Assembly (NCBI GenBank): GCA_026129685.1
Contig: JAHCHO010000014.1
Location: 38,627 to 102,626, forward strand
Reading direction: 5' to 3'
Source: Fimbriimonadaceae bacterium
GTDB lineage: Bacteria; Armatimonadota; Fimbriimonadia; Fimbriimonadales; Fimbriimonadaceae
Length of the DNA stretch: 64,000 bases
Part shown: piece by piece, positions 38,322 to 53,029 of the stretch
How positions within the stretch are numbered: the stretch's first letter is position 1
Layout of the letters: each line of letters opens with the position of its first letter
The notes under the pieces: model-generated
The model's input: only the letters and a program-made list of their open reading frames with translations
What the model was told of the DNA's origin: nothing
Databases searched by the model: none
Position numbers and translations under genes: made by a program

Positions 38322-38397
38322 GGCCTCGTAGCTCAGCGGATAGAGCGCCTCCGTCCTAAGGAGGGCGTCGGGGGTTCGAGTCCCTCCGAGGCCGCCA
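38322..38397 (+). tRNA. tRNA-Arg (anticodon CCU)
   Basis: All four arms fold: acceptor stem ggcctcg/cgaggcc, D stem gctc/gagc, anticodon stem cctcc/ggagg with loop gtcctaa (anticodon CCU, reading AGG), T stem ggggg/ccctc (one G-U) with loop ttcgagt, and an encoded CCA end. The 3' half is the attachment site of the adjacent island, and the insertion restored an intact gene. Confidence 0.95.
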
Positions 38398-38398
38398 C
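38353..38398 (+). repeat. attL: island attachment repeat within tRNA-Arg
   Basis: These 46 bases, from the anticodon loop to one base after CCA, recur exactly at 52984-53029 in the same orientation. This is the classic product of site-specific integration into a tRNA 3' end. The left copy belongs to the intact tRNA. Confidence 0.9.
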
Positions 38399-38465
38399 AT
38401 TTTTTGAACCTAGAACGGCCCATTTGAACCTAGAGGGAGGCGGTTTTCAGACCCCAGATTCGAGG

Positions 38466-38544
38466 AGTTTGGGCAAAGTTTGGGCAGAATTGGCATCGTT
38501 CTGGCGCACGCCACGGGAAACTCTGCCCAAACTTTGCCCAAACT
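38466..38544. repeat. Subterminal inverted repeat with TTTGGGCA motifs
   Basis: Bases 38466-38488 and 38522-38544 are perfect 23-base reverse complements separated by 33 bases. Each arm carries TTTGGGCA twice, spaced 11 bases apart. It lies 68 bases inside attL and may hold arm-type binding sites for a recombinase or an accessory factor. No gene is visible between the tRNA end and about 38870; this repeat and a -10 box are the only structures I can see there. Confidence 0.7.
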
Positions 38545-38792
38545 GCGCCCAAGGAAATCCTTCCATCGCCCCGGGCTAATGAACCCCTGGGACCTCCGGG
38601 CAGACTGTTGACGTTCGCCCACTGAGGGCACGGCGAACCACCGGTGTGTAGACCGAGGCGCAACGGACTCGAAGCGACCGTCCTCCATGGACCTCTTCCC
38701 GCAGAGGATCCGCCAGCGAGTCTGGGTCTTGCCGGACTGACCATCTGCAAGAAGAGAAGAAAAAAGTCCCTCCGATCAGCGGTGACCCGTCA

Positions 38793-38798
38793 TATAAT
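38793..38798 (+). promoter_or_regulatory. -10 box (TATAAT) ahead of the island operon
   Basis: A perfect TATAAT lies 73 bases upstream of the likely start of the IscU-like gene. The -35 region is weak. It is the best promoter candidate for the six-gene RHS operon. Confidence 0.45.
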
Positions 38799-38870
38799 GG
38801 CAACGTATCCAACGGAATCGGACGCTTGGGAAGCGAGAGTCCGCTACCGCTGGGGGAGCTGTCCGAGATC

Positions 38871-39236
38871 GTGTTCAGCACGACAGTCATCGAACACAAT
38901 GCCAGTCCCCGCAATGTCGGGGAATTCCAGGGCGCGAACCGACATGGGCAGGTCGGGATGCCGGGGTGTGGCCCGTACGTCGACCTTTGGCTCAGAATTG
39001 ACGGGGACACCATCTCCCGAGCCTCCTACCGGACCTACGGTTGCCCGGCTGCCGTTGCCTGCGCCAGCCTCGTCGCCGAGATTCTGCACGGCTGGTCGGT
39101 CGGGCAGGCGCGCGCTTTGGAAGCCAGGGACATCGAAGTGTTGCTCGGCGGACTGCCGGAGGGCAAGGGACACTGTCCCGAGATGGCGATCGAGGCGCTT
39201 CGAGACGCGTTGGGCGATGAGGTGGCCAAAGCATAA
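38871..39236 (+). CDS. IscU/NifU-N-like scaffold protein, atypical
   Basis: The sequence matches the IscU fold: VIEHNASPRNVGEF, GMPGCGPYVDLWLRIDGD, YRTYGCPAAVACASLVAEIL and GGLPEGKGHCPEMAIEAL. The three cluster-ligand cysteines (33, 58, 102) and His101 are kept. The Asp that normally follows the first Cys motif (CGD) is Pro (CGP). GTG at 38871 starts the product just before the conserved domain (121 residues); a TTG at 38826 is an alternative. No cysteine desulfurase or other iron-sulfur gene is nearby. Its stop overlaps the next start (TAATG), so it is the first gene of the RHS operon. Confidence 0.75.
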   Translation: MFSTTVIEHNASPRNVGEFQGANRHGQVGMPGCGPYVDLWLRIDGDTISRASYRTYGCPAAVACASLVAEILHGWSVGQARALEARDIEVLLGGLPEGKGHCPEMAIEALRDALGDEVAKA

Positions 39237-39970
39237 TGGCACTTCCGTGGGCTTCTGCAGCGTCCGGCTTCCCGCCGCTCTTGGTCAGGCCTCGCAACCT
39301 CGGCTCGGAGGTCGGGTGTTGCGACGACCGCCCGTGGCATTGCCTGGCGGGCGACATATGCGCCATCCCAGACCCCTCGTGCATGGATCTGAAGTGCCGC
39401 ACGCCAAGCGGAAACGACGATTGTGCCGATTGCTCCGAAAGCGAGTATGTGGTGGAGGATTGGCAGATCAGTTACTTCTCCATCGGCAGTTGCAGCTGGA
39501 GCGGAGGCAGTACGGACTGGGACAACTCCAGCAACACCTTTACTCAGAACATACCACCGAGCGCGACGTCTCTATTTGTCAAGTGTGAAGGCATTATCAA
39601 GGTTACCGCAACTTTCACTAACGAGGACGAGGACGTGCCACCGTGCGTCCTGCTGAAGATCGAGTCCACGGCACGGTCCTCGTGCGTCGAGGAGTTCCAG
39701 AATAGCGGTATGTGCAGTAACGGGATCGGTGATCCCGATCTTGCGTATCAGGGCGCAGGACCGCATCACTATGTGATACAGCATCAGTCCGCAGGAGAAG
39801 AGGTCTATATGCTCAAGGTTGAGACCGATCCGTTGAGCCCGGCTTATCGCACTGCCAGCGTGGCGATCAAGGTCACCGCTCTTGGCCTGGCGACCGGCGA
39901 ACAGGCTCCGTACCCAACCGGAACAATGTCATCGTATATTCTTGTGGAAGGCGAGGTGCTGCTGCCGTGA
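39236..39970 (+). CDS. Cys-rich protein of unknown function
   Basis: The 244-residue product shares one base with the upstream stop (TAATG) and four with the RHS gene start (GTGA). The N-terminal third is Cys-rich (CCDDRPWHCLAGDIC, CMDLKC, CADCSES); the remainder is beta-strand-like. No signal peptide is evident. I do not recognise the family. The position suggests an adaptor, chaperone or cargo protein for the RHS product, possibly metal-binding, but no function can be assigned from the sequence. Confidence 0.6.
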   Translation: MALPWASAASGFPPLLVRPRNLGSEVGCCDDRPWHCLAGDICAIPDPSCMDLKCRTPSGNDDCADCSESEYVVEDWQISYFSIGSCSWSGGSTDWDNSSNTFTQNIPPSATSLFVKCEGIIKVTATFTNEDEDVPPCVLLKIESTARSSCVEEFQNSGMCSNGIGDPDLAYQGAGPHHYVIQHQSAGEEVYMLKVETDPLSPAYRTASVAIKVTALGLATGEQAPYPTGTMSSYILVEGEVLLP

Positions 39971-42900
39971 ACGCACGCGAGCTCGATCAGCTCCTTCACG
40001 GTAATGGATCGACCGATCCCTACTTGCCGGTTCCCGACGCGTTCACCGGCGAACTGAAAGTTGATCCGAACGTACATCTACGAGCCAAGGCTCTCGACGT
40101 TGATCTTGCGTTTTACTACAGCTCGCTCTCCGACGACGACCGCCAATACGGAAAAGCAAGATCGCTTAATGTGGACTGCCGGGTCTTGTCGACGGTCGGC
40201 GGATCGGTCGTTACCTTGGTGCGTGGCGACTTTCGAAAGCACGTGTACTCGCTCGTCGGCTCCTCGGGCGGGATCACGACCTACGTGGAGACCACCGAGC
40301 CGCCAAGCTCTTCGACTCTGATCTACGACGGCCGTTTCGTTGAGACGTTCAACGATGGGCTGCAGATGATCTACGGAGAGGTCGCGGGTACAAGCCCGAA
40401 TCTCTCATTGTTGCTGAAACGGTATCAGAACCCATTGGGGGTGGGGCACACCTACAGCTACCTGGTTGATGGAGCCGATCGGTATCTGCAGGCTATTCAG
40501 GAGCCGGCGGGCCGCTTGGTGACGTTCGTCTACGATAGCGGTTCCCCGACGAAACTGCTTAACCACGTGGAGGACTGGACGGGACGCCGGTGGAGCTTCG
40601 CCTATGACGATCGGCAGTTGACGACCTACACCTCCCCGCTTGGCTGCGCGACGAAATACGCGTACTCCTCGGCCGGCGGACCTTCGACGATAATGCTTCT
40701 TCATGAGATAGAGGACCCGCGCGGCTATGCCACGAGTTACCTGTACGATGAACGCCGAAGAACCATCACGATGACGGCCGGCACCGCCGTCTGGGATTGG
40801 GACCGTTCGACCACGGGCCAAACGGTTCTTACGGAGCCACACGGGGGCAAGACCACATACCAGTTCGATGCCAACGGCGACCTCATGCTCAGGTTGGACC
40901 CGACCGGTGTTGTGAGCGCCTATGCTTACCAGAGTCGCCGCCCGATCCGGATTGACGGGGTGGATGGCCATGTGTACAGCGTGAGCTACGACGCCGCGGG
41001 GCGAATCGTGCTTGTCTGGCTCAAGACGAATCACTTCACGACGTTCGGCTATGACGGCTATGGCAACTTGACGACGGCCGTAGACCCATTGGGACAGGTG
41101 ACGACGTACGCCTATTCCGGAGCGACGCGGCTCTTGGAGTCCGTCGCGGACCCTCTTGGTCGGAGGACTACGCTTTCGTACTATGGCGATGGCCTCGTCA
41201 ATACGATCAAGGACCCTCGTGGTCTGGTAACGACGTTCGCCTACGACCGGTGGGGCAACATGACCACGCTCACGGCCTCCGACGGAGGCGTGTGGCGTTA
41301 CGGCTACGACGAGCTGAACCGCCGGATAAGCGTCCAGTTGCCGATGGGACCCAGGGTTTGGACCTACGGCTACGACGCGGGCGACAACATGGTGTTCGCC
41401 GAAGACCCGGATCTGAACGTCACGACGTACATCTACGATTCGTGTTTGCTGCAGGCCGTTCGGGATCCCTTCGGCTTTGCCACGACATTTGCCTACGGGC
41501 GATTTGGGAATCTGCTCACGGAAATCGATGCTCTCGGCTATCGAACCAGCTACGGTTACGATGTCATGGGGTTGCCCGTCAGCGTTGAGGACGCGATGGG
41601 TCATCTAGGAACCATCGTTTATCAAGCAGGGACCAGCCGAAGGCAAGCTGACATTGACGCTTTGGGAAACCGCACCAGCTACGGTTACGATATAGCAGGA
41701 CGGCTCTGGAGCATTACGGATCCCTTGGGGCGGATAGCAACCATCACCAACGATCAACCGGCTTCGCTGGTCGTTGACTCGTACGTCAACGGTTATCGCC
41801 GGGCAGACGGCAGCTATGTGACCTACGTGTACGATTCGCTAGACCGCCTTGTTGCATCGGTCAGCCCGCTCGATTATCGAAGCACGAGCGTGTACGATGC
41901 GGCCAGCCAGCTGGTTTCGCTGGTTGATCCGCTCGGCAACACCACCCACTTTTACTACGACGCCGCCGGGAACCAAACGGCCATGTTGGACGCCAACGGC
42001 AAGGTCTCGACAGTCGCGTACTACTCGAACAAGAACACGCCTCTGTCCGCCATTGATCCTCTCGGGAGACGTACCACCTACAGCTACGATGCGATGGATT
42101 GGTTGCGCAACCTGACCGATCCGGCAGGCGGAGTCCTGAGCATGAACTACTGGAATGCAGGCACGCTCCGGTGGGTCTTGAACCAACTCAACCAGACGTC
42201 GCGGTCGTACGAGTACGACCAACTCCAGCGCGTGCGAAAGCAAAACGACGCCTCTGGTGGAGCGGTGACCTTCCTTTACGACGCGATCGGACGGACGGTG
42301 GGCCTGTGGTACAGCGACAACCTCAGAGTGACCATTCAGTACGATCCCCTCGGGCGACGGACCACAATGGTGGATTGGACGGGGACGACAACGTACGCCT
42401 ATGACGCGCTGAGCCGCCTGCTCGGCCAGTCTCAGCCCGGTGGTCTGAACGTTGGCTACGGCTACGATCCGGTGGGCAACCGAACTCATATGGTTGATCC
42501 CGACGGGGGACGGTTCACCTATAGTCACGATGCGCTCGATCGCCTGATGGCGTTGCAGGTCCCGACCGGCCAGTTCTACACCCAGCAGTACGACGCCGAC
42601 TCCCGGCGGACCACCCTGCTGCTCGGCTTGGGCTCCAAGCGCCAGTACCGGTACGACGCCGCCAGCCGCCTCACCACGCAGATCGAGCTCAACTCCTCGA
42701 ATCAACCCATCTACACGATGGTGGACAGCTATGACGCCGTCGGAAACCGGACCGGGCGGACGACGAACGGCGAGCGGACGACCTGGGCCTACGACGACGC
42801 GTATCGGCTGATTCGGCAGGAGAGGCCGGGGCAGTGGGCCACGTTCGCCTACGATTCGAACGACAACCTTATCCTCAAGCACCATCAGGGCGAGCATGCG

Positions 42901-44157
42901 CGAACGATGTCCTACGACGCCGCCGGGCGGCTCGCCCAGGTTCTGCAGGGCGCGAACGTCACGACCTTCGTCTGGGGACAGCGGGGCGTGATGGCCCGGG
43001 TGTACGAGAACGGGACGGTCAAGGCCACCTACTCGCACACGGACATCAACAACAACCTGTGGGTCGCCGAGGAGAGCGGAGTCCGCTCGACCTACCAATA
43101 CGACGGGGACAACCTGCGACGCAACCTTCACAACGCCCAGTTCGGTCGGGCGACGGTCGTCTGGGACGGCGCGGACTACCTGCACTTCCGGCCGAGCGTG
43201 GGTTCGAAGCGGGTGTTCCACGTCCTGGAGGGCGAGGTCGTGGGGGAAAGCGTCGGCGGAACCGTGGAGGACTACCTCTTGGATTCGCTCGGCAGCGTGG
43301 TCGGGGTGCTGGACTCCTCCCAGGCGCTTACCGAGACGTTCGCGTACCGGCCGTTCGGGGAGCTCGCGCCGGGCGAGTTCGAGCCCGAGTGGCGGCCGTT
43401 CCTCTGGGTGGGCGGGCTCGGCTACTTCTTCGACGGGCTCCGCCACTACGTCCGGGCGAGGGTGTACCGGCCGGACTTCGGAAGCTGGAACCAGCTCGAT
43501 CCGTTGTGGCCGAACCAGCCACCATTTCAATACCCGGTCAGTCCCCTGGACGTCGTTGATCCGTCGGGACTGCAGGCCTCGTATTTGCCGCTTCTCGTAC
43601 GCTGGCCCAAGCCCGGCAAACCGCAGAAGCCGACCGACAAGAACGTCGTTATGATGGGTGACACTTTTCCCGGCTCTCAGCTCTTCTACCATCTCGTCAA
43701 GCCGGGGATCTACCGATCGGACGTAGAGCTTGAATGTCCGACAAAGAATCAACTAAGGTCGCAGTTGGTCGACTGCAACTCGTTTTGGTTCTATGGTCAC
43801 GGGGACAATGCCGGTCGGCTGTATCTAGCGCCCTTCCGAAACGGGGACCCCGACGACTGCAGGTTAGTACCCGACGATGTGGCCAAGATCGCGGCGTTTC
43901 GACGGAGGCTCGGCATTCCGAAAATGAAGTATGCGTACCTTGGCGCATGCGACATCGCGCAGAACCCAGAGGCCATCAACAACTGGCTTAGGATGGCGGA
44001 GGTCGTGTACGCCTATCCCTATCCAACGGCCGAGGCGTGGCCCCCACGTCTGAACATCCCGCATGTCTATCGCGAACCGCTACCAGTTCAGGAAGCTTCC
44101 AAGTGTCCCCCAAGGACGAGTACCGGCGGCAAAAAGACCGAGAAGAAGAATTGGTGA
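39967..44157 (+). CDS. RHS-repeat protein with variable C-terminal tip
   Basis: The 1,396-residue protein consists largely of YD/RHS repeats (many copies of GYDxxGNL and YDALxRL types), which form a large beta-shell enclosing the C-terminal region. The conserved RHS core ends with AYRPFGE, RARVYRPDFGSWNQLDP and DPSGLQ (about residues 1150-1203). The remaining 193 residues are a variable tip, as in polymorphic toxins. The tip has His1278 in FWFYGHGDN and Cys1328 in AYLGACD, reminiscent of a caspase/CHAT-type His-Cys dyad. No secretion signal or PAAR/VgrG domain is visible. GTG start overlapping the upstream stop; the last 4 bases overlap the next GTG. Confidence 0.88.
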   Translation: MNARELDQLLHGNGSTDPYLPVPDAFTGELKVDPNVHLRAKALDVDLAFYYSSLSDDDRQYGKARSLNVDCRVLSTVGGSVVTLVRGDFRKHVYSLVGSSGGITTYVETTEPPSSSTLIYDGRFVETFNDGLQMIYGEVAGTSPNLSLLLKRYQNPLGVGHTYSYLVDGADRYLQAIQEPAGRLVTFVYDSGSPTKLLNHVEDWTGRRWSFAYDDRQLTTYTSPLGCATKYAYSSAGGPSTIMLLHEIEDPRGYATSYLYDERRRTITMTAGTAVWDWDRSTTGQTVLTEPHGGKTTYQFDANGDLMLRLDPTGVVSAYAYQSRRPIRIDGVDGHVYSVSYDAAGRIVLVWLKTNHFTTFGYDGYGNLTTAVDPLGQVTTYAYSGATRLLESVADPLGRRTTLSYYGDGLVNTIKDPRGLVTTFAYDRWGNMTTLTASDGGVWRYGYDELNRRISVQLPMGPRVWTYGYDAGDNMVFAEDPDLNVTTYIYDSCLLQAVRDPFGFATTFAYGRFGNLLTEIDALGYRTSYGYDVMGLPVSVEDAMGHLGTIVYQAGTSRRQADIDALGNRTSYGYDIAGRLWSITDPLGRIATITNDQPASLVVDSYVNGYRRADGSYVTYVYDSLDRLVASVSPLDYRSTSVYDAASQLVSLVDPLGNTTHFYYDAAGNQTAMLDANGKVSTVAYYSNKNTPLSAIDPLGRRTTYSYDAMDWLRNLTDPAGGVLSMNYWNAGTLRWVLNQLNQTSRSYEYDQLQRVRKQNDASGGAVTFLYDAIGRTVGLWYSDNLRVTIQYDPLGRRTTMVDWTGTTTYAYDALSRLLGQSQPGGLNVGYGYDPVGNRTHMVDPDGGRFTYSHDALDRLMALQVPTGQFYTQQYDADSRRTTLLLGLGSKRQYRYDAASRLTTQIELNSSNQPIYTMVDSYDAVGNRTGRTTNGERTTWAYDDAYRLIRQERPGQWATFAYDSNDNLILKHHQGEHARTMSYDAAGRLAQVLQGANVTTFVWGQRGVMARVYENGTVKATYSHTDINNNLWVAEESGVRSTYQYDGDNLRRNLHNAQFGRATVVWDGADYLHFRPSVGSKRVFHVLEGEVVGESVGGTVEDYLLDSLGSVVGVLDSSQALTETFAYRPFGELAPGEFEPEWRPFLWVGGLGYFFDGLRHYVRARVYRPDFGSWNQLDPLWPNQPPFQYPVSPLDVVDPSGLQASYLPLLVRWPKPGKPQKPTDKNVVMMGDTFPGSQLFYHLVKPGIYRSDVELECPTKNQLRSQLVDCNSFWFYGHGDNAGRLYLAPFRNGDPDDCRLVPDDVAKIAAFRRRLGIPKMKYAYLGACDIAQNPEAINNWLRMAEVVYAYPYPTAEAWPPRLNIPHVYREPLPVQEASKCPPRTSTGGKKTEKKNW
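43250..43502 (+). repeat. RHS core segment, copy 1 of 253-base duplication
   Basis: This stretch encodes the end of the RHS core and recurs at 44829-45081 with 4 mismatches. The copy within the full-length RHS gene is the likely source. Confidence 0.9.
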
Positions 44158-44795
44158 GGCCAAGATCGCCGTTGCGGAAGCGTATGAAAGCGAAGTGGAT
44201 CGCCGGTCTGGTGGTGATCATCGGTCTGGCGGGATACGGAATCTATCTTTACATCAGTATGTTGAGGTTCTACGCTGGAATCGCCAGAACGACTGTCATG
44301 TGGGAAGGGATGTGGCACACTGAGTGGACGGAGGAGGAAGTCGTTCGCGCGGCAAGACAGGAACCAAAAGCCGACGACCTTTCGATCGAGGCCACGGTCG
44401 AGAACGCGGGTGATCGGGAGCAGGTGGTTCACCTGCAGTTCGGCGGCCCCTTTGGGATCAGCGAAGTCTATGCGTTTCGCCATCGCGTGAAGCTCGTCAA
44501 AACGGTCCGCTCCGAGGACGGGACGTCGCTCGCGGCGATCGCCTCGATATCCGACGGCGGGTCCAGCACTCAAGCGCTCATCGTCAGCACGGGTGGCAAG
44601 TCGGTGGACGAGGGCACCATCATAGCCGCTACCAGGGAAGATAGGGACGCGTTGGATATCAAGTGGCTGAGCAACACGAAACTAGAGATTCGCGTGACGA
44701 GAGACGGCTGGGAGGTGCGACACGCCGGAGCGACGTACGATGCGGACAAAGCGGGCAGTCCCTACGTGATAGACCTGGAGACGCCGTCACCATGA
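44154..44795 (+). CDS. Single-TM protein, candidate immunity to the RHS tip
   Basis: GTG at 44154 overlaps the RHS stop (GTGA), and the stop overlaps the next ATG (ATGA). The 213-residue product has a basic N-terminus, one membrane helix (about residues 15-36) and a hydrophilic domain outside or in the periplasm with no recognised fold. Genes directly after an RHS tip usually encode its immunity protein, so this role is likely from position. An upstream GTG at 44103 or an ATG at 44184 are alternative starts. Confidence 0.65.
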   Translation: MRPRSPLRKRMKAKWIAGLVVIIGLAGYGIYLYISMLRFYAGIARTTVMWEGMWHTEWTEEEVVRAARQEPKADDLSIEATVENAGDREQVVHLQFGGPFGISEVYAFRHRVKLVKTVRSEDGTSLAAIASISDGGSSTQALIVSTGGKSVDEGTIIAATREDRDALDIKWLSNTKLEIRVTRDGWEVRHAGATYDADKAGSPYVIDLETPSP

Positions 44796-45787
44796 GGGCC
44801 CGCGGCCGACCGATGCGGTTTCGCCCGGGCGTCGGCGGAACCGTGGAGGACTACCTCTTGGATTCGCTCGGCAGCGTGGTCGGGGTGCTGGACTCCTCCC
44901 AGGCGCTTACCGAGACGTTCGCGTACCGGCCGTTCGGGGAGCTCGCGCCGGGCGAGTTCGAGCCCGAGTGGCGGCCGTTCCTCTGGGTGGGCGGGCTCGG
45001 CTACTTCTTCGACGGGCTCCGGTACTACGTCCGGGCGAGGATGTACCGTCCGGACTTCGGAAGCTGGAACCAGCTCGATCCCATATGGCCCCTTACAGCC
45101 CCATACTCCTACGTAGGAGGCCGTCCCTCGACGTTCGTTGATCCTTCTGGCCTCCAACTCATCCAAGGTTGGAGTTGGAGCAAGTACTGGTCCGATTGCG
45201 GAGCGGTTCTTCAAGGGTACGGTGATGTGCTGAACCCTGCGGCATGGTTTGACGGCATGAAGAACCTAGCTTGGACGGCCGGGGAACAGGGATTTGGTGC
45301 GGCCGGCAGTCAGCTGCTCGACGGGTTGGTTCGGAGCGCCTGCTTCTGGGAAGCATTCGGTGAGACTGACAACTGTCGTGCTTTTGGCAACCGCTTTGGC
45401 TCGTCTCTGTTGCTCTATGGTGGCGGAGCGCTCAAAGTGAACTCGCTAGGTGTGCGCACTAAGGTGGTGACCCATTGGTCTAACAAAGCAGAAGTGATCG
45501 ATACGTTCAAACGTGCATACGCCCAGGGGGGACCGACCAAAGCAGCTGAAGCCTGCAGCGGTGCTTGGGTCATGATTGGCGGTCGTACCCCCTACAACCA
45601 CTTGATGTCTGGCCGAGTCGCCCGTTACAAGGATAGCGTCACCGTTAAGGTCCCGACCAACTGCCTATACTATCCACCAGGCATGGAGTACCTCAAGGCC
45701 CCTCTCGGGCAGCGAATCGTAGGCCCACCCCGCCCATGGTACCAATGGTGGAAGCCGGGGAAACCTCTTGTTCCCAAGGACAAATAA
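44792..45787 (+). CDS. Orphan RHS C-terminal module with a second variable tip
   Basis: The 331-residue product begins with 12 unrelated residues, then about 84 residues of RHS core (YLLDSLGSVVGVLDSSQAL to SWNQLDP) nearly identical to the full RHS protein, then DPSGLQ and a new tip of about 215 residues. The tip contains WSNKAEVIDTFKRAYAQGG and ARYKDSVTVKVPTNCLYYPPG, which faintly resembles ADP-ribosyltransferase-related (TreTu-like) toxin tips; this is not certain. It cannot form the RHS shell alone. Such displaced tips act as a reservoir for recombination into the main gene. Coupled on both sides (ATGA, TAATG). Confidence 0.8.
   Translation: MRARGRPMRFRPGVGGTVEDYLLDSLGSVVGVLDSSQALTETFAYRPFGELAPGEFEPEWRPFLWVGGLGYFFDGLRYYVRARMYRPDFGSWNQLDPIWPLTAPYSYVGGRPSTFVDPSGLQLIQGWSWSKYWSDCGAVLQGYGDVLNPAAWFDGMKNLAWTAGEQGFGAAGSQLLDGLVRSACFWEAFGETDNCRAFGNRFGSSLLLYGGGALKVNSLGVRTKVVTHWSNKAEVIDTFKRAYAQGGPTKAAEACSGAWVMIGGRTPYNHLMSGRVARYKDSVTVKVPTNCLYYPPGMEYLKAPLGQRIVGPPRPWYQWWKPGKPLVPKDK
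44829..45081 (+). repeat. RHS core segment, copy 2 of 253-base duplication
   Basis: Copy of 43250-43502 (249 of 253 bases identical), in the same orientation, 1,579 bases downstream. It gives homology for exchange of the tip and immunity genes. Confidence 0.9.
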
Positions 45788-46557
45788 TGGGAGGATTCGA
45801 TGGCCTGTTCACGACTATGCTGGTCTTGGCGTCACTGCAGACTACGCTTGACATCATGGCGGCGTTGTACGTGATAAGGGGCCCCCGTATGTATCTCCCA
45901 AGGGAAGCAGAGTATCTCCTTGGTCGAACAAGGCCCATTGCTTGCTTCATTCCGGTGGCGATGGCGCTTTCACTGGCCGCCATGGTTCTGTCGGACAAGC
46001 TCAGCCTACGCGCCATTGGTCTCGCCAACATGGGAGCTCAGTTGCTCTGTCTCTTTGCGTGGACTTCACGTCGCGAGTCGGGCGCGATGCTGCGAGTAGT
46101 GGCGTTGGACAGTAGCAAGACAACGAATGACGTATTATGGTGTTCCGATCTCCTGGACGAGTATAGGAGGAACGTCGTCTTCTATTTGCTGGAGCATGAG
46201 CGAGTTCAACTCGCCATGGACGTGCCACCGACCCACCCACTGCGAACGGCGAAGGACCTCAACGGTCGGAGACCGTTCATGGTGGCGGCGTTTCTCGGCT
46301 TAGAGGGTTTCGTGGATCAGGAAGGCGTCCACGATCTGACCGTTGTGGAAGATCGTCAAGGCTATCGGGTCGGTCATTACGCAGCGGCTGGTGAGCACGC
46401 CGGAGTTCTCTTGCTTCTGGCCAGGAAAGGAGTTGATCCGAATCCGGTTAACTTGAGAAACGGCGTAAAGGCTACGGAGCTTTGGCCGGAGTTTGACTGG
46501 GGCTTGGTGCGCACAGATGAAGGAGCAGACGAACGCGTGCCAACCGGTTCCAAATAG
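45787..46557 (+). CDS. Membrane protein with ankyrin-like C-terminus, candidate immunity
   Basis: The ATG shares a base with the upstream stop (TAATG). Three hydrophobic segments (about residues 6-30, 50-75, 80-100) precede a cytoplasmic-type region whose end resembles ankyrin repeats (GYRVGHYAAAGEHAGVLLLLARKGVDPNPVN). Its position directly after the orphan RHS tip suggests that it neutralises that tip; membrane topology would fit a membrane-active or periplasmic toxin. The function is inferred. Its stop lies 9 bases from the convergent glycosyltransferase gene. Confidence 0.65.
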   Translation: MGGFDGLFTTMLVLASLQTTLDIMAALYVIRGPRMYLPREAEYLLGRTRPIACFIPVAMALSLAAMVLSDKLSLRAIGLANMGAQLLCLFAWTSRRESGAMLRVVALDSSKTTNDVLWCSDLLDEYRRNVVFYLLEHERVQLAMDVPPTHPLRTAKDLNGRRPFMVAAFLGLEGFVDQEGVHDLTVVEDRQGYRVGHYAAAGEHAGVLLLLARKGVDPNPVNLRNGVKATELWPEFDWGLVRTDEGADERVPTGSK

Positions 46558-46566
46558 TCGAGGGCC

Positions 46567-49500
46567 CTAGAAGGGAGGGCAAGGCGGCCCCGTCGACGTC
46601 TGGGTCCTCGCGTCCTCAAGGCGCGCGAGCGTCTCTCCATGGTCGGGATTCAGCTCGTGGGCACGGCCCAGCCAGCGGACGGCCCCTTCGACGTCGCCCG
46701 CGTCCTGGGCGAGCGCGCCCAGGTGGAAGGCGCCCTCCGCGACCCCCTGACCGGCCAGCCACTCCAGGTGGCCCGAAGCCTCTTCGTACTGGGTCGAGGA
46801 CAGCAGTCGCCGGGCGAGGACGAGTCGCGCCGCCTTGGAGTGAGGATGGCTCGCCGCCAACTCGCGCAAGGCGCGCAGCTCGTTCGGAACGCCTCCGATG
46901 GCTCGGGCGAGTTCGCCGGTCATCCCTATCCACTCCTCCGACAGTCCGCCCGCGCTCTGCAGGCCGAGCACGCACTCCTTGGCGACGGGAACGTCGCCGG
47001 CCTCGAGCGCGGCCCGGAAGAGCTGTCGGTAGGCGGGAACGAAACCCGGATGAAGGCGAATGGCCTCGCGGAAGTGCCGCTTGCCCTCGGCGTACGCTCC
47101 GCGATCCATGTGGACGTTGGCGAGGTTCAGGTGCGTTTTGAACCCGAGGATGCCGACGTCAATGCTGGAAAAGTGCCCGCCGATGTCCGCGCCCACGACC
47201 CGCTCGTAGCTGGCGATCGCCTGGGCGTGCTCGCCCCGGTGTCCGTGCAGGACGCCCTTGTGGAAGAGCAGTTCCGGGTCGCCGGGCACGATCGCCAGTC
47301 CGGCTTCCACCGTCCTCATCGCTTCTTCGGTCCGTCCGAGTTCCCGTAGCGACAGAGCTTTGAGCGCATAGGCCTTTCGCACGTGCGACTCCTCCGGCTT
47401 CGAGACCGCAAGGCACTTGTTGAACCAATCCACCGCGTCCTCGTGCTTCCCGTCGAAGTGGGTGGTCATACCCCAGTTGAAGAGCACAAAGGGATGCTCC
47501 GGGTTTTCCTTCAGTTCGAGCGAGAGCAGGTGGTAGTCCCGGTGTCGCTTACGGGCCTGACCCTCCGACGACGTGTCGTAACCACTGTGCAGGACCTCCG
47601 CGCCGAGGCGTGTAATGTGTCCCCCTGCCCGTCGGATGGAAGGCACGATCTGCTCGTGAATCCGACCCTCGAAACGGAACTGCGGTAGGTTGCGAAAGAG
47701 CTTCACATGGTCCACGACGGTGCCGTAGATCGGGTCGTCGTTGACGAAGCGCACCGGAACGACGAAAGCCGTCGTTCCCGCAGTGGCGTCGAGCGCCGCT
47801 CGCACGATCGCTTCTCCGGAGTTCCAGGGCAACGTGTCGTCGGCGTCCATCCAGAACACCCACCGCCCCCTGGCGTGCCGGAGCGACTCGTTCCGAGCTT
47901 CCGCAAAGCTGTCGGGCCACTCGATGGCGTGCACGTCCGCTCCTTGATCACGGGCGATACGGACCGTATTGTCCGTCGAGCCTGTGTCGACGACAACGAT
48001 CTGACTGAAGAATGGCCCTGCCGATCGGAGGCACTGCTCAAGCACCCGCTCCTCGTTCCTAACGATCATGCAGAGCGAGATGTCGGCCTGCAGCTTCAGG
48101 CCGGCCATCTGGCGAAGGAGCTTCTCCGGTCTCCTGCCCTCATCGAAGGCGATGCGCTCGGACGATCGTCCGCTCAGTTGGCTGGCGAAGCCGGTCTGCA
48201 GGTCCAGCTTCCACTTCTCCAGAAAGAGCCCTTCGTTCGCTTCAAAGTGGTCCACCAGGTTCACTTGGACTCGCTCCAGGCTCTGGTGCGCCGCGTGATG
48301 GACGAAGGCGTTCTTTGAGATCACCAACCGGTATCCCGCCCTTCTGAGACGGTAACAGAGGTCGTTGTCCTCGAACATGCCCAGACCGAAGCGCGGGTCG
48401 AAGAGCCCCACCTCATCGAGGGCGCTGCGCTTCACCGCCAGACAGAAGCCGACAAGCATGTCAACGTCTTGATCGTCTTCTCCTCGCATGGCGAAGTCCT
48501 CGGCGAACAGATTGATGTTGTCGAGGTTCGTATAGCTCACCGGGGTGAGCTGGTGGTGGCCGACGCGGTTGCTAAGCGGTCCTGCCGCCGCGATCGAGCC
48601 GGACGAGGTCAGCGATTGGATAAGGCGAACGAGCCCCGCACGAGGAACGATCGCATCGCTGTTGAGGAGCAGGACCACCGCACCGTCCGACTCCAGGATC
48701 CCCCGATTGCAGGTGGGACCGAATCCCAAGTTCTGTTCGTTACGGGTCAAGCGGGCGAACTCGTAGCGCTCGACCACCGACGCGGCGTCGTCCGGGGAGG
48801 CGTCGTCAACCACGATCACCTCGTGCAGAAGGTCCCGACACGAGCCGAGGCTGTCGAGACACCGTTCTATGTCGTCCGGTCCGCCGTAGAGAGGAATGAC
48901 GACACTGACCGATGGCCATCCCTCGGTGTGCTCGACGCACGGCGGGTGCAGCGGATCGGAATCTCCGTGGTGCGCCCGGTACTGGGTCCAGCACGACGCG
49001 AGGATCTCCGGAACCTTGCGTCTCTCGGCCCATCCGTAGGCTTCCGGATGAGTGGGGTGAATCTGGCGCATCGTCCGGTCGGCATCCCACCCGGTCCACA
49101 CCTTGGCGAACCACCTCTCGGCCACCTCGTGTTTATGGCTCCAGGTGGAGGTTTTGCGGACGATCCTCTCGTTCGGCAGCACGTATGAGAGGTGGTGGAG
49201 CAGGCCGTACTCTTCCTCAAGGATCAGTTGGCGACCACCTCGGTACGCCCGAATGTGTTCGTGCTCGACGACCTGTGGATTCAGCATCAGGAAGGGTCGA
49301 ATACGCTCGCGTGGGCGGATCGCGTACTCAGGGCTCTTCCAATACGTGTCCATAGCGACGCCGACTCGGTCGGCGAGGCCGGCACGCCCGATCCGGAGAA
49401 GGACGTCCAGGAGTCCTGGCTCGACGACCTCGTCACCATCAGGGATCAGTAGAGTTCGGCAACCGGCCTCTTTGGCGTACGCGAGGGCATGCTTGCGGTG

Positions 49501-49767
49501 AGCGCCCTCCTCGGCCCACTCGCCTTGGATAATATCCGCACCCGCAGTCCGCGCCACCTCGATCACGCGTTGGTAAGGTCCCGCACTGCCCGACCACGGG
49601 CGAGAGGAAACGAAGACGACAACCCTTCCGGCGGTGGCGAAAGACTCGATCGACTGCGCCAAGTACCATTGATCGTCGTGCGCGACGTACGCGACAAGGA
49701 CCTCCTCGGAGGTGGTATTGCACATGTGGGCCTTCGCGGCGACTCCCCGGCTCAACTCAGACATCAC
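46567..49767 (-). CDS. Giant protein: three glycosyltransferase-2 modules plus TPR
   Basis: Residues about 20-240 form a GT-A-like module (AYVAHDDQWYLAQSIESF, LIPDGDEVVEPG). Residues about 285-540 are a clear GT2 module (VSVVIPLYGGPDDIERCLDSL, VLLLNSDAIVP, GMFEDNDLCYRLRRAGY). Residues about 585-780 are a second clear GT2 module (ISLCMIVRNEERVLEQCLRSA, WVFWMDADDTLPW). The C-terminal 270 or so residues are TPR repeats. It probably transfers several sugars to a surface polymer or protein. GTG at 49767, ATG at 49764 and ATG at 49725 are possible starts; the last has a GAAGG at good spacing. Confidence 0.85.
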   Translation of the reverse strand: MMSELSRGVAAKAHMCNTTSEEVLVAYVAHDDQWYLAQSIESFATAGRVVVFVSSRPWSGSAGPYQRVIEVARTAGADIIQGEWAEEGAHRKHALAYAKEAGCRTLLIPDGDEVVEPGLLDVLLRIGRAGLADRVGVAMDTYWKSPEYAIRPRERIRPFLMLNPQVVEHEHIRAYRGGRQLILEEEYGLLHHLSYVLPNERIVRKTSTWSHKHEVAERWFAKVWTGWDADRTMRQIHPTHPEAYGWAERRKVPEILASCWTQYRAHHGDSDPLHPPCVEHTEGWPSVSVVIPLYGGPDDIERCLDSLGSCRDLLHEVIVVDDASPDDAASVVERYEFARLTRNEQNLGFGPTCNRGILESDGAVVLLLNSDAIVPRAGLVRLIQSLTSSGSIAAAGPLSNRVGHHQLTPVSYTNLDNINLFAEDFAMRGEDDQDVDMLVGFCLAVKRSALDEVGLFDPRFGLGMFEDNDLCYRLRRAGYRLVISKNAFVHHAAHQSLERVQVNLVDHFEANEGLFLEKWKLDLQTGFASQLSGRSSERIAFDEGRRPEKLLRQMAGLKLQADISLCMIVRNEERVLEQCLRSAGPFFSQIVVVDTGSTDNTVRIARDQGADVHAIEWPDSFAEARNESLRHARGRWVFWMDADDTLPWNSGEAIVRAALDATAGTTAFVVPVRFVNDDPIYGTVVDHVKLFRNLPQFRFEGRIHEQIVPSIRRAGGHITRLGAEVLHSGYDTSSEGQARKRHRDYHLLSLELKENPEHPFVLFNWGMTTHFDGKHEDAVDWFNKCLAVSKPEESHVRKAYALKALSLRELGRTEEAMRTVEAGLAIVPGDPELLFHKGVLHGHRGEHAQAIASYERVVGADIGGHFSSIDVGILGFKTHLNLANVHMDRGAYAEGKRHFREAIRLHPGFVPAYRQLFRAALEAGDVPVAKECVLGLQSAGGLSEEWIGMTGELARAIGGVPNELRALRELAASHPHSKAARLVLARRLLSSTQYEEASGHLEWLAGQGVAEGAFHLGALAQDAGDVEGAVRWLGRAHELNPDHGETLARLEDARTQTSTGPPCPPF

Positions 49768-49945
49768 CGCGCAACGGGAGCATACCTTCGCGTGGTCTCG
49801 ACCCTATCGTGAATCGCTGAGTTCGGTTGACTCCCCGATGGCCGTTGGGGAGCGCTGCCAGGTGGCTTGTGACGGACCGCGCTAGATTCAGACCCCTGGG
49901 CCGTGACCCAGATGGTGGCGCAAGAGGCAATCGGAAGGCCGCCCG

Positions 49946-50818
49946 CTACCTCAGCGCCACGGACGAACCCGTCGCCACTTTTGGAGTACCCGGGCCGAAG
50001 CGTCCGAGTGAATACCGCTTCCGAAGGTCAGGGACGGCGAGAATCGAGACCTCAACTGGATTCTGCGGCGTGATCTCTCCGTCACTGCCCCAGCTCTCGT
50101 GCAAGGCGGTCTTCACCTCCCTCCATCTGAACGCCGGGTTGAGCACCGGAGAGCTCATCTCTATCTTGTCCGTCTCGGTGTTGACGCGACGCTCGGAGAC
50201 GACGGGGAACACCAAGGAGTGGAACTCGGAAGGGGCAAACCCGCCCATGTCGCCGCCCCATTGGCCGAGCATAACCTGCAAGCCGTTTGCCAGACGGCCG
50301 GTGAACCACACGTGCAACGGATCGCGCCGAACTCGCTTCTCGCGCTCCACGGCAGTCAGCGATAGGGCGCTCTCGACCTTGTACGTTGCGTACCGGACTT
50401 CTTCGGGCCCGCCTGTCTGACCCATGATCACGTTCCAGAGCGTCCCGGCGGTGGTTGGCTCAATGGATGCCTTAATGTAGAATCCCTCGACCATTCCCCG
50501 TGCGTCCAGGAAGACCCAAAGCAAGCTCTTGCTCTTCATCGGTCCTTCGAGAGCCCAGAGGTAGCGCTCTGGAGACACCCCGGTGGGCTCCTGTCCGACG
50601 ACGGCGAGCAACCGGTCCTTCGACTTTCCTTGGGCATCGAGGGCTTTCTGGAGCAGTGCGAGGATCGGCTCGGAGGTGAACGGCCTGCGCGGCGCTGTCG
50701 GCGCGGCGGCCGACCCGGGATGAGCCACGCTCAGGCTCGTCCGATCAGGATTGGCGCAACCGGCGAACGCGCAAGAGGCGAAAAGGGCGATCAGCAATCG
50801 AACGGCAGGTTCTCTCAT
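49946..50818 (-). CDS. Lipoprotein of unknown function
   Basis: ATG at 50818 is preceded by GAGAGGGA at good spacing and gives a lipoprotein signal (residues 1-22, lipobox FAGC). The 290-residue product continues with a Pro/Ala-rich linker and then a domain with no recognised family. It lies between the glycosyltransferase gene and the IS element, on the minus strand, 178 bases upstream of the former. That gap contains no gene. A role with the glycosyltransferase is possible. Confidence 0.65.
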   Translation of the reverse strand: MREPAVRLLIALFASCAFAGCANPDRTSLSVAHPGSAAAPTAPRRPFTSEPILALLQKALDAQGKSKDRLLAVVGQEPTGVSPERYLWALEGPMKSKSLLWVFLDARGMVEGFYIKASIEPTTAGTLWNVIMGQTGGPEEVRYATYKVESALSLTAVEREKRVRRDPLHVWFTGRLANGLQVMLGQWGGDMGGFAPSEFHSLVFPVVSERRVNTETDKIEMSSPVLNPAFRWREVKTALHESWGSDGEITPQNPVEVSILAVPDLRKRYSLGRFGPGTPKVATGSSVALR

Positions 50819-50975
50819 CTTGGCATCCCTCTCTATAGGTTCGAAGTCGCCCAGCGGCACCCTGCCAGAAAGACCGCCTTCTGGTTGAGGTCAACCTCCG
50901 ACGAACCGGTGACCGGTTCCCCGTAGTCTTTCCACCCCTGGATCAGAGGATTCGGCTCCAGAATAGGAGACGAAC

Positions 50976-51245
50976 ATGGCAGAAAGGAAACGGTACACCG
51001 AGGAGCAGATCCTCAAGGTTTTGGGTGAGATCGACGCCGGTGCGAGCATCGCGTCGGTATCGCGGTCTCACGGCATCAGCGATCAGACCATCTATGCGTG
51101 GCGCAAGCGCTTCGCCGGGATGTCCCGGAGCGAGCTTGCCGAGCTGAAGGCGATGCAGGAGGAGAACCGCCGGCTCCGGCACCTGGTGGCGGAGCTGAGC
51201 TTGGACAACGCGGCTTTGAAGGAGCTCCAGCGGGGAAAATGGTGA
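50976..51245 (+). CDS. IS3-family transposase OrfA
   Basis: This 89-residue helix-turn-helix protein has the IS3 OrfA signature KRYTEEQILKVLGEIDAG and SRSHGISDQTIYAWRKRF, followed by a leucine-zipper-like helix (ELKAMQEENRRLRHLVAEL). It binds the IS ends. It ends in the ATGGTGA overlap with OrfB, near a GGGGAAAAT stretch suitable for programmed -1 frameshifting to make the OrfAB transposase. Confidence 0.9.
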   Translation: MAERKRYTEEQILKVLGEIDAGASIASVSRSHGISDQTIYAWRKRFAGMSRSELAELKAMQEENRRLRHLVAELSLDNAALKELQRGKW

Positions 51246-52057
51246 GCCCCGGCAGCAGGCGACGCGGCGTGCGCTTCCTGCTGGACCGGGGCTTTCCCAG
51301 AACGTGTGCTTGCCGGGTGTGCGCGATCTCCCGTCCGGCAAGCCGCCATGTGCCCAAGGAGCGGAGTCCGGGGCTCAGGGCAAGGGTTCTGGAACTGGCC
51401 AGGGCGAACCCTCGCTACGGCTTTCGGCGCGTCCACGCGCTCTTGCCAGGTGTGAACCTCAAGGCGGTCCACCGCATCTGGAAGGAAGAAGGGCTTGGCG
51501 TTCGGCATCGCAAGCGAGCCAGGCTCGTGGTTCCGAAAGCGGAAGGTCCGCAGCTCACCGGTCCGAATCAGGCGTGGTGCCTGGACTTTGCGCACGAGCG
51601 GCTCGAGAACGGTCGCCATACGCGCATCCTCGGCGTTCTGGACTGCTTCACGCGGGAGTGCCTGCTGCTCAAGGCGGCAAGCTCGTTTCCGGCGTTCCAG
51701 GTCGAGAAAGAGCTCGAATGGTTGTTCCTGGTCCACGGCAAACCTGCGGCGATAGTCTCGGACAACGGTCCCGAGTTCCGGGCCATGACGCTCCCCGAGG
51801 GCGTCTCGAATCGCTTCATCCAGCCGGGCAAGCCCTGGCAGAACGGCTACATCGAGAGCTTCTTCGGAAAGCTCCGCGACGAACTCCTTTCCTGCGAACT
51901 CTTCGTGCGAGGCGCCGAACTGCAAGCGGCGCTCGCCGACTTCCAGGAACACTACAATCACCACCGACCTCATCTGGGACTCGGTGGACTGACCCCCGCG
52001 AACTTCAAACAGAAGTCGCAAGCGACAAACACGGAGGAACCGATCCTCTATTCCTAG
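51239..52057 (+). CDS. IS3-family transposase OrfB (DDE)
   Basis: This is the catalytic subunit with the RNase H fold. The DDE residues are in WCLDFAHERL (Asp), IVSDNGPEF (Asp) and GYIESFFGKLRDE (Glu), with the usual NPRYGFRRVHALL segment upstream and YNHHRPHLGLGGLTP at the C-terminus. It lies in the -1 frame relative to OrfA and overlaps it by 7 bases. The gene appears intact at 272 residues, so the element may be active. Confidence 0.93.
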   Translation: MVSPGSRRRGVRFLLDRGFPRTCACRVCAISRPASRHVPKERSPGLRARVLELARANPRYGFRRVHALLPGVNLKAVHRIWKEEGLGVRHRKRARLVVPKAEGPQLTGPNQAWCLDFAHERLENGRHTRILGVLDCFTRECLLLKAASSFPAFQVEKELEWLFLVHGKPAAIVSDNGPEFRAMTLPEGVSNRFIQPGKPWQNGYIESFFGKLRDELLSCELFVRGAELQAALADFQEHYNHHRPHLGLGGLTPANFKQKSQATNTEEPILYS

Positions 52058-52252
52058 AGTGGAAACTTATCGGGGACTGGTCAGGGCGCGGACCAATGAG
52101 CTCGGGGGAGCAGGGCGAGTCTCGCCCGGACAGAGCGGAAGTCCGGGCAGTCCCCAAGGCCCTGCGTGGGCAAGTCTTGCATTGGATTGGCAGAAAGAGG
52201 CAGCCGCAAGCGCGCGACTGCCTCTGGTAGAGATGGTCCGACTGGATCGGGC

Positions 52253-52798
52253 CTAGGCCTGGAAGAGCAGACCGTCCACCTGTTTCCTCGCGATCCGAGC
52301 GATCAGTCGGTCAACCGTGGGGTTGTGGCAAGCGAATGTGGGCAGTTTGTCCGGAGCCCGACGTGAGACGGCCAGGTCGGTCTTGGGGTCCCACTGGTAG
52401 CGCCAAAGCCGCGCCACTTGGAAGGGCTCCTGATCGAGCTCTTGGCCCAGGTGGTATCGGAAGCCTCCGGAGAAGACGACGATGCGCGGGGCTCCCCAGC
52501 GCAGCGGCACCACGGCGGCCCGCTGGTGGGCGGAGCTGTGGATGCCACAGACGAGCGTTACGCCGTCGAGGACCAGTCGCTCCGCCTCGGCCTCGATCTT
52601 GCTGAACTCTTGGGACGTGGAGTGTACGCGTCCGAAAGCCGAGGGCACATGAGCCAAGGTCGCCGAGAGGAGCCGAACGTTCCCGTAGAGCCACACGCCC
52701 GCCGGCTCGTAGAATCCAGGCTCCCAGTCAAAGGGAGCAGTACGACGAGGGGGCGAGATGGAGGTGCTCGCCAGAGCAAGGTCAGATTGGGCTATCAC
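52253..52798 (-). CDS. DprA-like Rossmann-fold protein, possibly truncated
   Basis: The sequence SQEFSKIEAEAERLVLDGVTLVCGIHSSAHQRAAVVPLRWGAPRIVVFSGGF (in parts) resembles the DprA/Smf nucleotide-fold region, in which the SG..GID..AH motif and the LG-G-L motif bind single-stranded DNA. The later FACHNPTVDRLIARI resembles the RN-R-I motif. The 181 residues are shorter than DprA (about 300), and no winged-helix or SAM domain is seen. It starts at GTG. It could be a degraded gene or a stand-alone DprA-like defence accessory. Low to moderate certainty. Confidence 0.45.
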   Translation of the reverse strand: MIAQSDLALASTSISPPRRTAPFDWEPGFYEPAGVWLYGNVRLLSATLAHVPSAFGRVHSTSQEFSKIEAEAERLVLDGVTLVCGIHSSAHQRAAVVPLRWGAPRIVVFSGGFRYHLGQELDQEPFQVARLWRYQWDPKTDLAVSRRAPDKLPTFACHNPTVDRLIARIARKQVDGLLFQA

Positions 52799-52888
52799 CT
52801 ACCCAGTCTTCAGGTGAGGAGTCGTTTCGTCCAAAGGTCCGGACTGGGTGCAATCCGCCCGGTTGTGCAACCCGGCTCCGGCAAGGTT

Positions 52889-52905
52889 TGCCCAAAGTTT
52901 GGGCA
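52889..52905. repeat. Subterminal TTTGGGCA dyad near attR
   Basis: TGCCCAAA and TTTGGGCA are perfect inverted 8-mers around one base, 78 bases inside attR. The 16-mer caaagtttgggcagaa at 52893-52908 also occurs in the left-end inverted repeat. It is probably the same protein-binding motif at both island ends. Nothing else is visible in the 185 bases from 52799 to attR. Confidence 0.6.
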
Positions 52906-52983
52906 GAAAGGGCTGCCCTTGGGACCACCAAATGACGCTTAAGGAACCTAACATGGGCCTTCTGCCAGCCTCACCAGCCATCG

Positions 52984-53029
52984 GTCCTAAGGAGGGCGTC
53001 GGGGGTTCGAGTCCCTCCGAGGCCGCCAC
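52984..53029 (+). repeat. attR: island attachment repeat
   Basis: Exact 46-base copy of the tRNA-Arg 3' portion at 38353-38398, in the same orientation. It lacks the acceptor 5' strand and the D arm, so it is not a functional tRNA. The last base also forms part of the stop codon of the flanking DUF1801-type gene. Confidence 0.9.

Follow-up and report, generated by a model that had tools for sequence, protein, structure and literature searches.

In the phylum Armatimonadota, a gene for a protein of the NifU/IscU fold, altered at its iron-sulfur site, stands directly before a gene for a large RHS-repeat protein, in most cases with a small cysteine-rich reading frame between them. This NifU-RHS module is real and conserved and was not found in the searchable literature, and it is a variant of the RHS polymorphic toxin systems. 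We describe it from an operon of six genes in a 64,000-nucleotide stretch of DNA (the window; contig JAHCHO010000014.1, positions 38,627 to 102,626) of a Fimbriimonadaceae bacterium. The altered NifU-like protein has likely been reused, together with a glycosyltransferase encoded nearby, to prepare the cysteine-rich partner of a predicted toxin for deployment. More specifically, and with a little less than even confidence, we propose that the operon belongs to an RHS polymorphic-toxin island on which the NifU/IscU-fold paralogue acts, by way of a single cysteine, as a thiol or persulfide adaptor for the toxin's cysteine-rich partner.

The linkage between the two genes carries this finding. Loci were picked by NifU score, not by RHS, and comprised 41 top matches from the family list, 20 top matches from outside the family, 40 lower-scoring matches, three from a scan of public contigs, the window, and the housekeeping copy of its own genome. 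Residues are numbered as in the window protein; a copy with both Cys33 and Asp35 is called canonical, and anything else altered. With one duplicate removed (L146, the same as L198), 107 NifU_N genes in the phylum were examined, 75 altered and 32 canonical. An RHS gene on the same strand within 1,300 bases downstream was counted as linkage. Such a gene followed 63 of the altered copies (five had none and seven lay at a contig end) and one of the canonical copies (30 had none and one lay at a contig end), which is 63 of 68 judgeable genes against 1 of 31. Five further altered copies, outside the 75, all had RHS, and the linked genes are spread over eight or more families in the phylum. Besides the housekeeping copies, the 85 genomes of the window's family hold many relatives of the window protein, at about 35–64% identity. 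The genome itself (a 3.94-Mb assembly) has three NifU_N genes: a canonical housekeeping copy on contig 16 (L008), the window copy, and a copy on contig 13 directly before an RHS gene. The preliminary description of the window had treated the genes of the operon as one unit, and the 63 of 68 bears it out. That description had also named RHS homologues without the first genes as a sign against a unit. Read from the altered NifU gene, the association holds at the frequency just given; read from RHS, there are exceptions, with NifU-less RHS genes in at least 12 regions of seven genomes.

Chance can be weighed at this point. It is highly improbable that the pairing arose by accident, from an iron-sulfur gene that merely landed in front of RHS on a mobile island. 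The operon does lie between tRNA-Arg repeats, as it would on an island, but the contrast in linkage between altered and canonical genes, its spread over families, the shared altered site, and the overlapping genes all speak against a bystander. Eight inspected loci with names from outside the phylum (L131–L134, L139–L141, and L144) had no RHS gene, and none of the eight had the PGxGP motif. Six of them were canonical, and two lacked the first cysteine: L140, with tyrosine at position 33 and no Cys58, and L144, with aspartate at position 33 and Asp35 kept. Within the sampled loci, one NifU_N gene (L197:5912-6289) has Cys33 and Asp35 but no third cysteine, and an RHS gene follows it at a distance of 1,048 bases; it may be an intermediate or have been recruited independently.

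The assignment of the first gene to NifU_N is sound (Pfam E 8.7e-25), and the altered family shares fold and sequence with the N-terminal iron-sulfur scaffold of IscU and NifU (for example, Archaeoglobus fulgidus IscU, 4eb5). It differs from that scaffold in its RHS operons and in its site. The first cysteine, at position 33, is lost in 74 of the 75 altered copies, 59 of which have aspartate or glutamate there; the aspartate (Asp39 of IscU) is lost in 73 and kept in two; and the third cysteine, at position 102, is present in 34 and absent from 41. What the altered copies retain is one invariant cysteine (75/75) and a lysine (73/75). The window copy is exceptional among them, with all three cysteines and Pro35 instead of the aspartate. 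None of its four NCBIfam matches, TIGR03419 NifU_clost among them, reaches the curated cut-off of the model (95.4 against 187.9, 73.8 against 273.3, 68.3 against 192.4, and 46.6 against 92.5 bits). Because the first cysteine and the aspartate are lost, the reading of the first gene as an iron-sulfur scaffold, as the preliminary description had it, probably names the wrong function for the altered family, and we rejected it as the family function on ligand loss. The public names of relatives ("iron-sulfur cluster assembly scaffold protein", "NifU-like", or hypothetical) are, in the first two cases, probably also wrong in function. The one-cysteine sulfur acceptors SufE and CsdE are among the closest known systems.

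For the window copy alone, with its three cysteines, cluster or zinc binding is possible, and a scaffold-like role was kept there as a rival. On that account the NifU-like protein, at least in the window, would carry a cluster or zinc and insert it into the cysteine-rich protein. The partner has 13 cysteines, the peptides of other modules are cysteine-rich too, and loss of Asp39 alone is reported to stabilize cluster binding in IscU (PMC4243993). We nevertheless consider a loader distinctly unlikely. With the first cysteine almost always absent, the third absent from just over half of the copies, and position 33 usually acidic, the altered family has no constant set of ligands. The window copy falls within a group whose other members have aspartate, glutamate, or glycine at position 33, so its Cys33 looks secondary.

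The gene between NifU and RHS is the second component of the module. A small frame with at least four cysteines occupies this position in 49 of the 63 modules, the window included, compared with 13 of 59 in an antisense control (59 modules had a gap long enough to scan), and the median cysteine content of the intervening frames was 6.6% against 3.7% antisense. When each frame was started at its first possible start codon, which favors early starts, 17 of the 49 overlapped the end of the NifU-like gene by exactly 4 bases, and 41 began between -10 and +16 bases from its stop. Because related loci show like start positions, the coupling of the window gene is more than chance. The peptides look very unlike each other, are rich in glycine, proline, and cysteine, and are mostly 60–110 amino acids long; by these sequence features, the gene encodes a leader-like peptide that changes quickly and that some loci carry as a fusion to RHS. 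Such fusions account for six of the other 14 modules (L128, L161, L163, L170, L174, and L182), where, judged by eye, the RHS protein itself begins with a cysteine-, glycine-, and proline-rich stretch, and they tie the peptide to RHS. Three more (L055, L194, and L200) have a frame with three cysteines, another three (L071, L089, and L110) have, after the NifU-like gene, an RHS tip that lacks the N-terminal part, and two (L094 and L165) have no clear peptide. The window protein carries an extra C-terminal part relative to the other peptides. It had no match in Pfam or NCBIfam, and a search of 41 genomes gave, besides itself, two weak matches near E 1e-3.

In five modules the peptide between the NifU-like and RHS genes contains a Hint/intein-like domain, recognized in L078, L079, and L087 by library matches below the curated cut-offs (Hint_2 E 2.5e-4; Hint E 0.0012) and in L082 and L213 by eye. 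In four of the five (not L087) the domain ends in His-Asn. The domain and this ending suggest that these leader peptides may cleave themselves.

A third component is the glycosyltransferase gene that converges with the operon in the window. The nearest solved structure to its product is SunS (7msp, E 1.8e-22 over residues 563–788), the S-glycosyltransferase of the glycocin sublancin, followed by GmaR (E 2.7e-20). One GT2 half of the window enzyme is related to SunS, and a cysteine-rich peptide is encoded nearby; unlike SunS, the window enzyme has two GT2 domains in 1,066 amino acids and stands similarly close to GmaR. After trimming of gene starts, 34 of the 75 altered loci have a SunS-like GT2-TPR gene immediately upstream in the same orientation, four have it on the opposite strand, and none of the 32 canonical loci has one. 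In other altered loci it stands at the distal end of the RHS array. Across the 85 family genomes the gene is co-distributed with the altered NifU-like gene: in a tally made by hand, uncorrected for kinship, and with unfetched, partial, low-identity NifU matches taken as housekeeping, 40 have both an altered NifU-like gene and the glycosyltransferase, 41 have neither, two have only the NifU-like gene (G056 and G072), and two have only the glycosyltransferase (G043 and G082). A weak match to the glycosyltransferase was also seen in one control locus with RHS tips in the window's own genome (L227).

The question that the module poses is how a protein as large as RHS, with no evident signal, leaves cells in which no type VI sheath was detected. 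By hydropathy, the window RHS protein has no transmembrane-like or signal-like hydrophobic segment. For comparison we used 14 RHS regions in which the NifU profile found nothing: 12 regions from seven genomes, taken from among the RHS matches listed for 15 genomes, and two tip regions of the window's own genome; two of these control loci are close copies of each other. The N-terminal hydrophobic stretch scored at least 1.8 in 9 of the 10 usable controls and 1.6 in the tenth (L215 and L217, with RHS in pieces, and L227 and L228, with no frame of at least four repeat motifs, were left out). Among module proteins, 5 of 50 reached 1.8, with a median of 0.90 (p 1.4e-6 against the controls); this set leaves out the 13 of 63 genes without the N-terminal motif used, the window's included. 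The module thus goes with RHS proteins mostly without a signal-like start. The same genomes hold a second RHS type (L216 and L218–L226) with a signal-like hydrophobic start and no NifU-like gene nearby.

A type VI or other contractile sheath was considered as the export route and rejected. The type VI sheath protein VipB was found in 0 of 15 genomes, the window's own included, in a search that detected the E. coli control, and Phage_sheath was found in two of the 15 (G020 and G049) and not in the window's own; type II, VII, and IX systems were not searched. Pfam found no PAAR domain in the window peptide, and the window RHS protein matched RHS_repeat only. These results bear on a second rival, in which the NifU fold would be a dedicated chaperone without chemistry that binds the cysteine-rich RHS leader and keeps it soluble. 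In the Eag-PAAR-Rhs systems of type VI secretion, a small helper and a small N-terminal protein stand before the RHS protein or are fused to it, and Eag chaperones serve PAAR-type Rhs proteins in this manner. The order of helper, small leader protein, and RHS in the module, and its leader-RHS fusions, recall that arrangement. However, the PAAR match and the sheath are missing, and a pure binder need not retain one cysteine in every altered copy. We consider a chaperone of this kind unlikely.

The one-cysteine adaptor that we favor could work as follows. The NifU-like protein would use Cys58 and the surface that surrounds Lys99 to bind the cysteine-rich peptide, and the SunS-like enzyme would glycosylate the same peptide or the RHS N-terminus. 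The treated peptide would then replace the absent Sec signal and permit deployment of the RHS shell. The tips would act as toxins (in the main gene, perhaps a caspase-like protease) that the products of the genes after them neutralize, and orphan tips would be swapped in through the near-identical core. A fuller version, in which Armatimonadota would possess a new route for RHS toxins that needs no signal peptide, the NifU-derived one-cysteine carrier and the SunS-like enzyme modifying the cysteines of a separate or fused leader and the modified leader taking the place of the Sec signal, is put forward more tentatively, as somewhat unlikely.

The remainder of the operon resembles known RHS polymorphic toxins, as described in 2012 by Zhang and colleagues (PMC3482391), in its YD repeats, variable C-terminal tips, orphan cassettes, and candidate immunity genes. 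The module departs from those systems in lacking a signal-like N-terminus and a type VI sheath and in adding the NifU-like gene, the cysteine-rich leader, and the glycosyltransferase. A segment of 262 bases is 97.3% identical between the main RHS gene (43250–43511) and the orphan tip (44829–45090), which is what tip swapping would predict, and the assignment of the fifth gene as an orphan tip in the preliminary description was right. Rhs_assc_core scores 23 bits in the main gene, below the cut-off that the orphan tip exceeds. One homologue was found for the main tip (P0121, 44% identity, E 3e-27), and it keeps both the YGHG and LGAC motifs. A weak structure model of the tip (pLDDT 52) gave as top matches SAVED-CHAT, asparaginyl endopeptidase, and C11 protease, at E 9e-3 or worse, and a caspase-like (clan CD) peptidase is a lead only. 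Caspase-like tips are known in polymorphic toxins (PMC3482391).

The features of the operon and its surroundings are collected in the table below. None of the six frames has an internal stop, and the five junctions overlap by 1, 4, 4, 4, and 1 bases, exactly as had been described. Genes 2, 4, and 5 had no Pfam match, and gene 6 had only the weak ankyrin match. Gene starts are those chosen in the preliminary description; longer in-frame starts exist at TTG 38826 and GTG 44037, and aligned relatives of the NifU-like gene use the equivalent of the start at 38871. A promoter had been placed at 38793, where the TATAAT hexamer is indeed present, but a promoter scan lent it no support (0 promoter-like sites, where chance alone would give 2.2). 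The glycosyltransferase, the leader-like character of the cysteine-rich gene, the absence of a signal, and the tRNA-flanked island are additions of this analysis.

Table. Features of the RHS operon, the convergent glycosyltransferase gene, and the island in the window.
Feature	Position	Strand	Details
NifU/IscU-fold protein, 121 aa	GTG 38871..39236	+	Cys33, Pro35 (Asp replaced), Cys58, Lys99, Cys102
Cys-rich protein, 244 aa, 13 Cys	ATG 39236..39970	+	position of the module's small Cys/Gly/Pro-rich peptide
RHS/YD-repeat protein, 1396 aa	GTG 39967..44157	+	RHS_repeat E 2.2e-86, 18 stretches
Variable C-terminal tip of the main RHS, predicted caspase-like (clan CD) peptidase	43594..44157	+	YGHG and LGAC motifs
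Candidate immunity protein 1	GTG 44154..44795	+	follows the RHS tip; one transmembrane-like segment near the N-terminus (hydropathy)
Orphan RHS tip, which repeats the end of the RHS core but has another C-terminus	ATG 44792..45787	+	Rhs_assc_core 37.9 bits, cut-off 32.5
Candidate immunity protein 2	ATG 45787..46557	+	two transmembrane-like segments; weak ankyrin-like C-terminus, Ank_2 E 0.026 (below cut-off)
Glycosyltransferase with two GT2 domains and TPR repeats, 1,066 aa, C-terminal half SunS-like	46567..49767	-	Pfam; convergent with the operon
tRNA-Arg(CCT) gene	38322..38397		ARAGORN
Left island repeat (3' portion of tRNA-Arg(CCT))	38353..38398	+	exact 46-base repeat with 52984..53029
Transposase-type integrase core	51098..52057		rve domains
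Right island repeat (copy of the 3' portion of tRNA-Arg)	52984..53029	+	exact 46-base repeat

The operon and the glycosyltransferase gene lie on a 14.6-kb island at tRNA-Arg (38353–53029). With up to three mismatches allowed, a 28-base part of the end repeat is expected 0.00 times by chance. The DNA enclosed by the repeats has a GC content of 61.7%, lower than the 67.2% and 66.9% on either side. Near both ends there is also a 16-base repeat (GCAAAGTTTGGGCAG-like). Among the Pfam-scanned frames of the island, the integrase core is the sole mobile-element protein, presumably IS3-like, and no tyrosine recombinase was recognized. No empty site of the island was seen among relatives, as the two genes that flank it are on different contigs in the three that have both (G002, G011, and G013). 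Repeated tRNA ends were found at two other modules (L063, tRNA-Val; L085, tRNA-Asn). Linkage to tRNA genes as a general rule was rejected: a tRNA was present in the fetched stretch of 6 of 74 altered and 2 of 32 canonical loci, which is no enrichment.

Two observations concern loci elsewhere. The second NifU-RHS locus of the window's own genome (contig 13, L007:11844-15601) has its RHS gene split in two overlapping frames and may be broken there; several RHS tips follow it in series. A record named Methanoregulaceae archaeon SJ84 (JADZEW; L108, L109, L112, and L125) carries several of these bacterial modules, and its name looks wrong, as contigs of equal length belong to G013, a genome placed in the window's family.

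Searches for NifU together with Rhs polymorphic toxins found no paper, with most subscription journals lying outside the search; nor did searches for RHS in Fimbriimonas or for "Rhs repeat" in Armatimonadetes in the searchable literature. Rhs combined with "iron-sulfur cluster assembly scaffold" and toxin gave nothing related there, judged by titles and the starts of abstracts. The accessible parts of PMC3482391 mention neither NifU nor IscU, and those of a paper on bacterial teneurins (PMC13018210) do not mention NifU. We know of no earlier case of an iron-sulfur scaffold turned toxin-maturation factor; the fuller version given above would, if true, describe the first known to us. With the module, RHS toxins of several families in one phylum would have a dedicated kit of parts that can be tested separately, and the module would offer a clean example of a housekeeping fold that loses its cofactor site and becomes fixed in a predicted conflict system.

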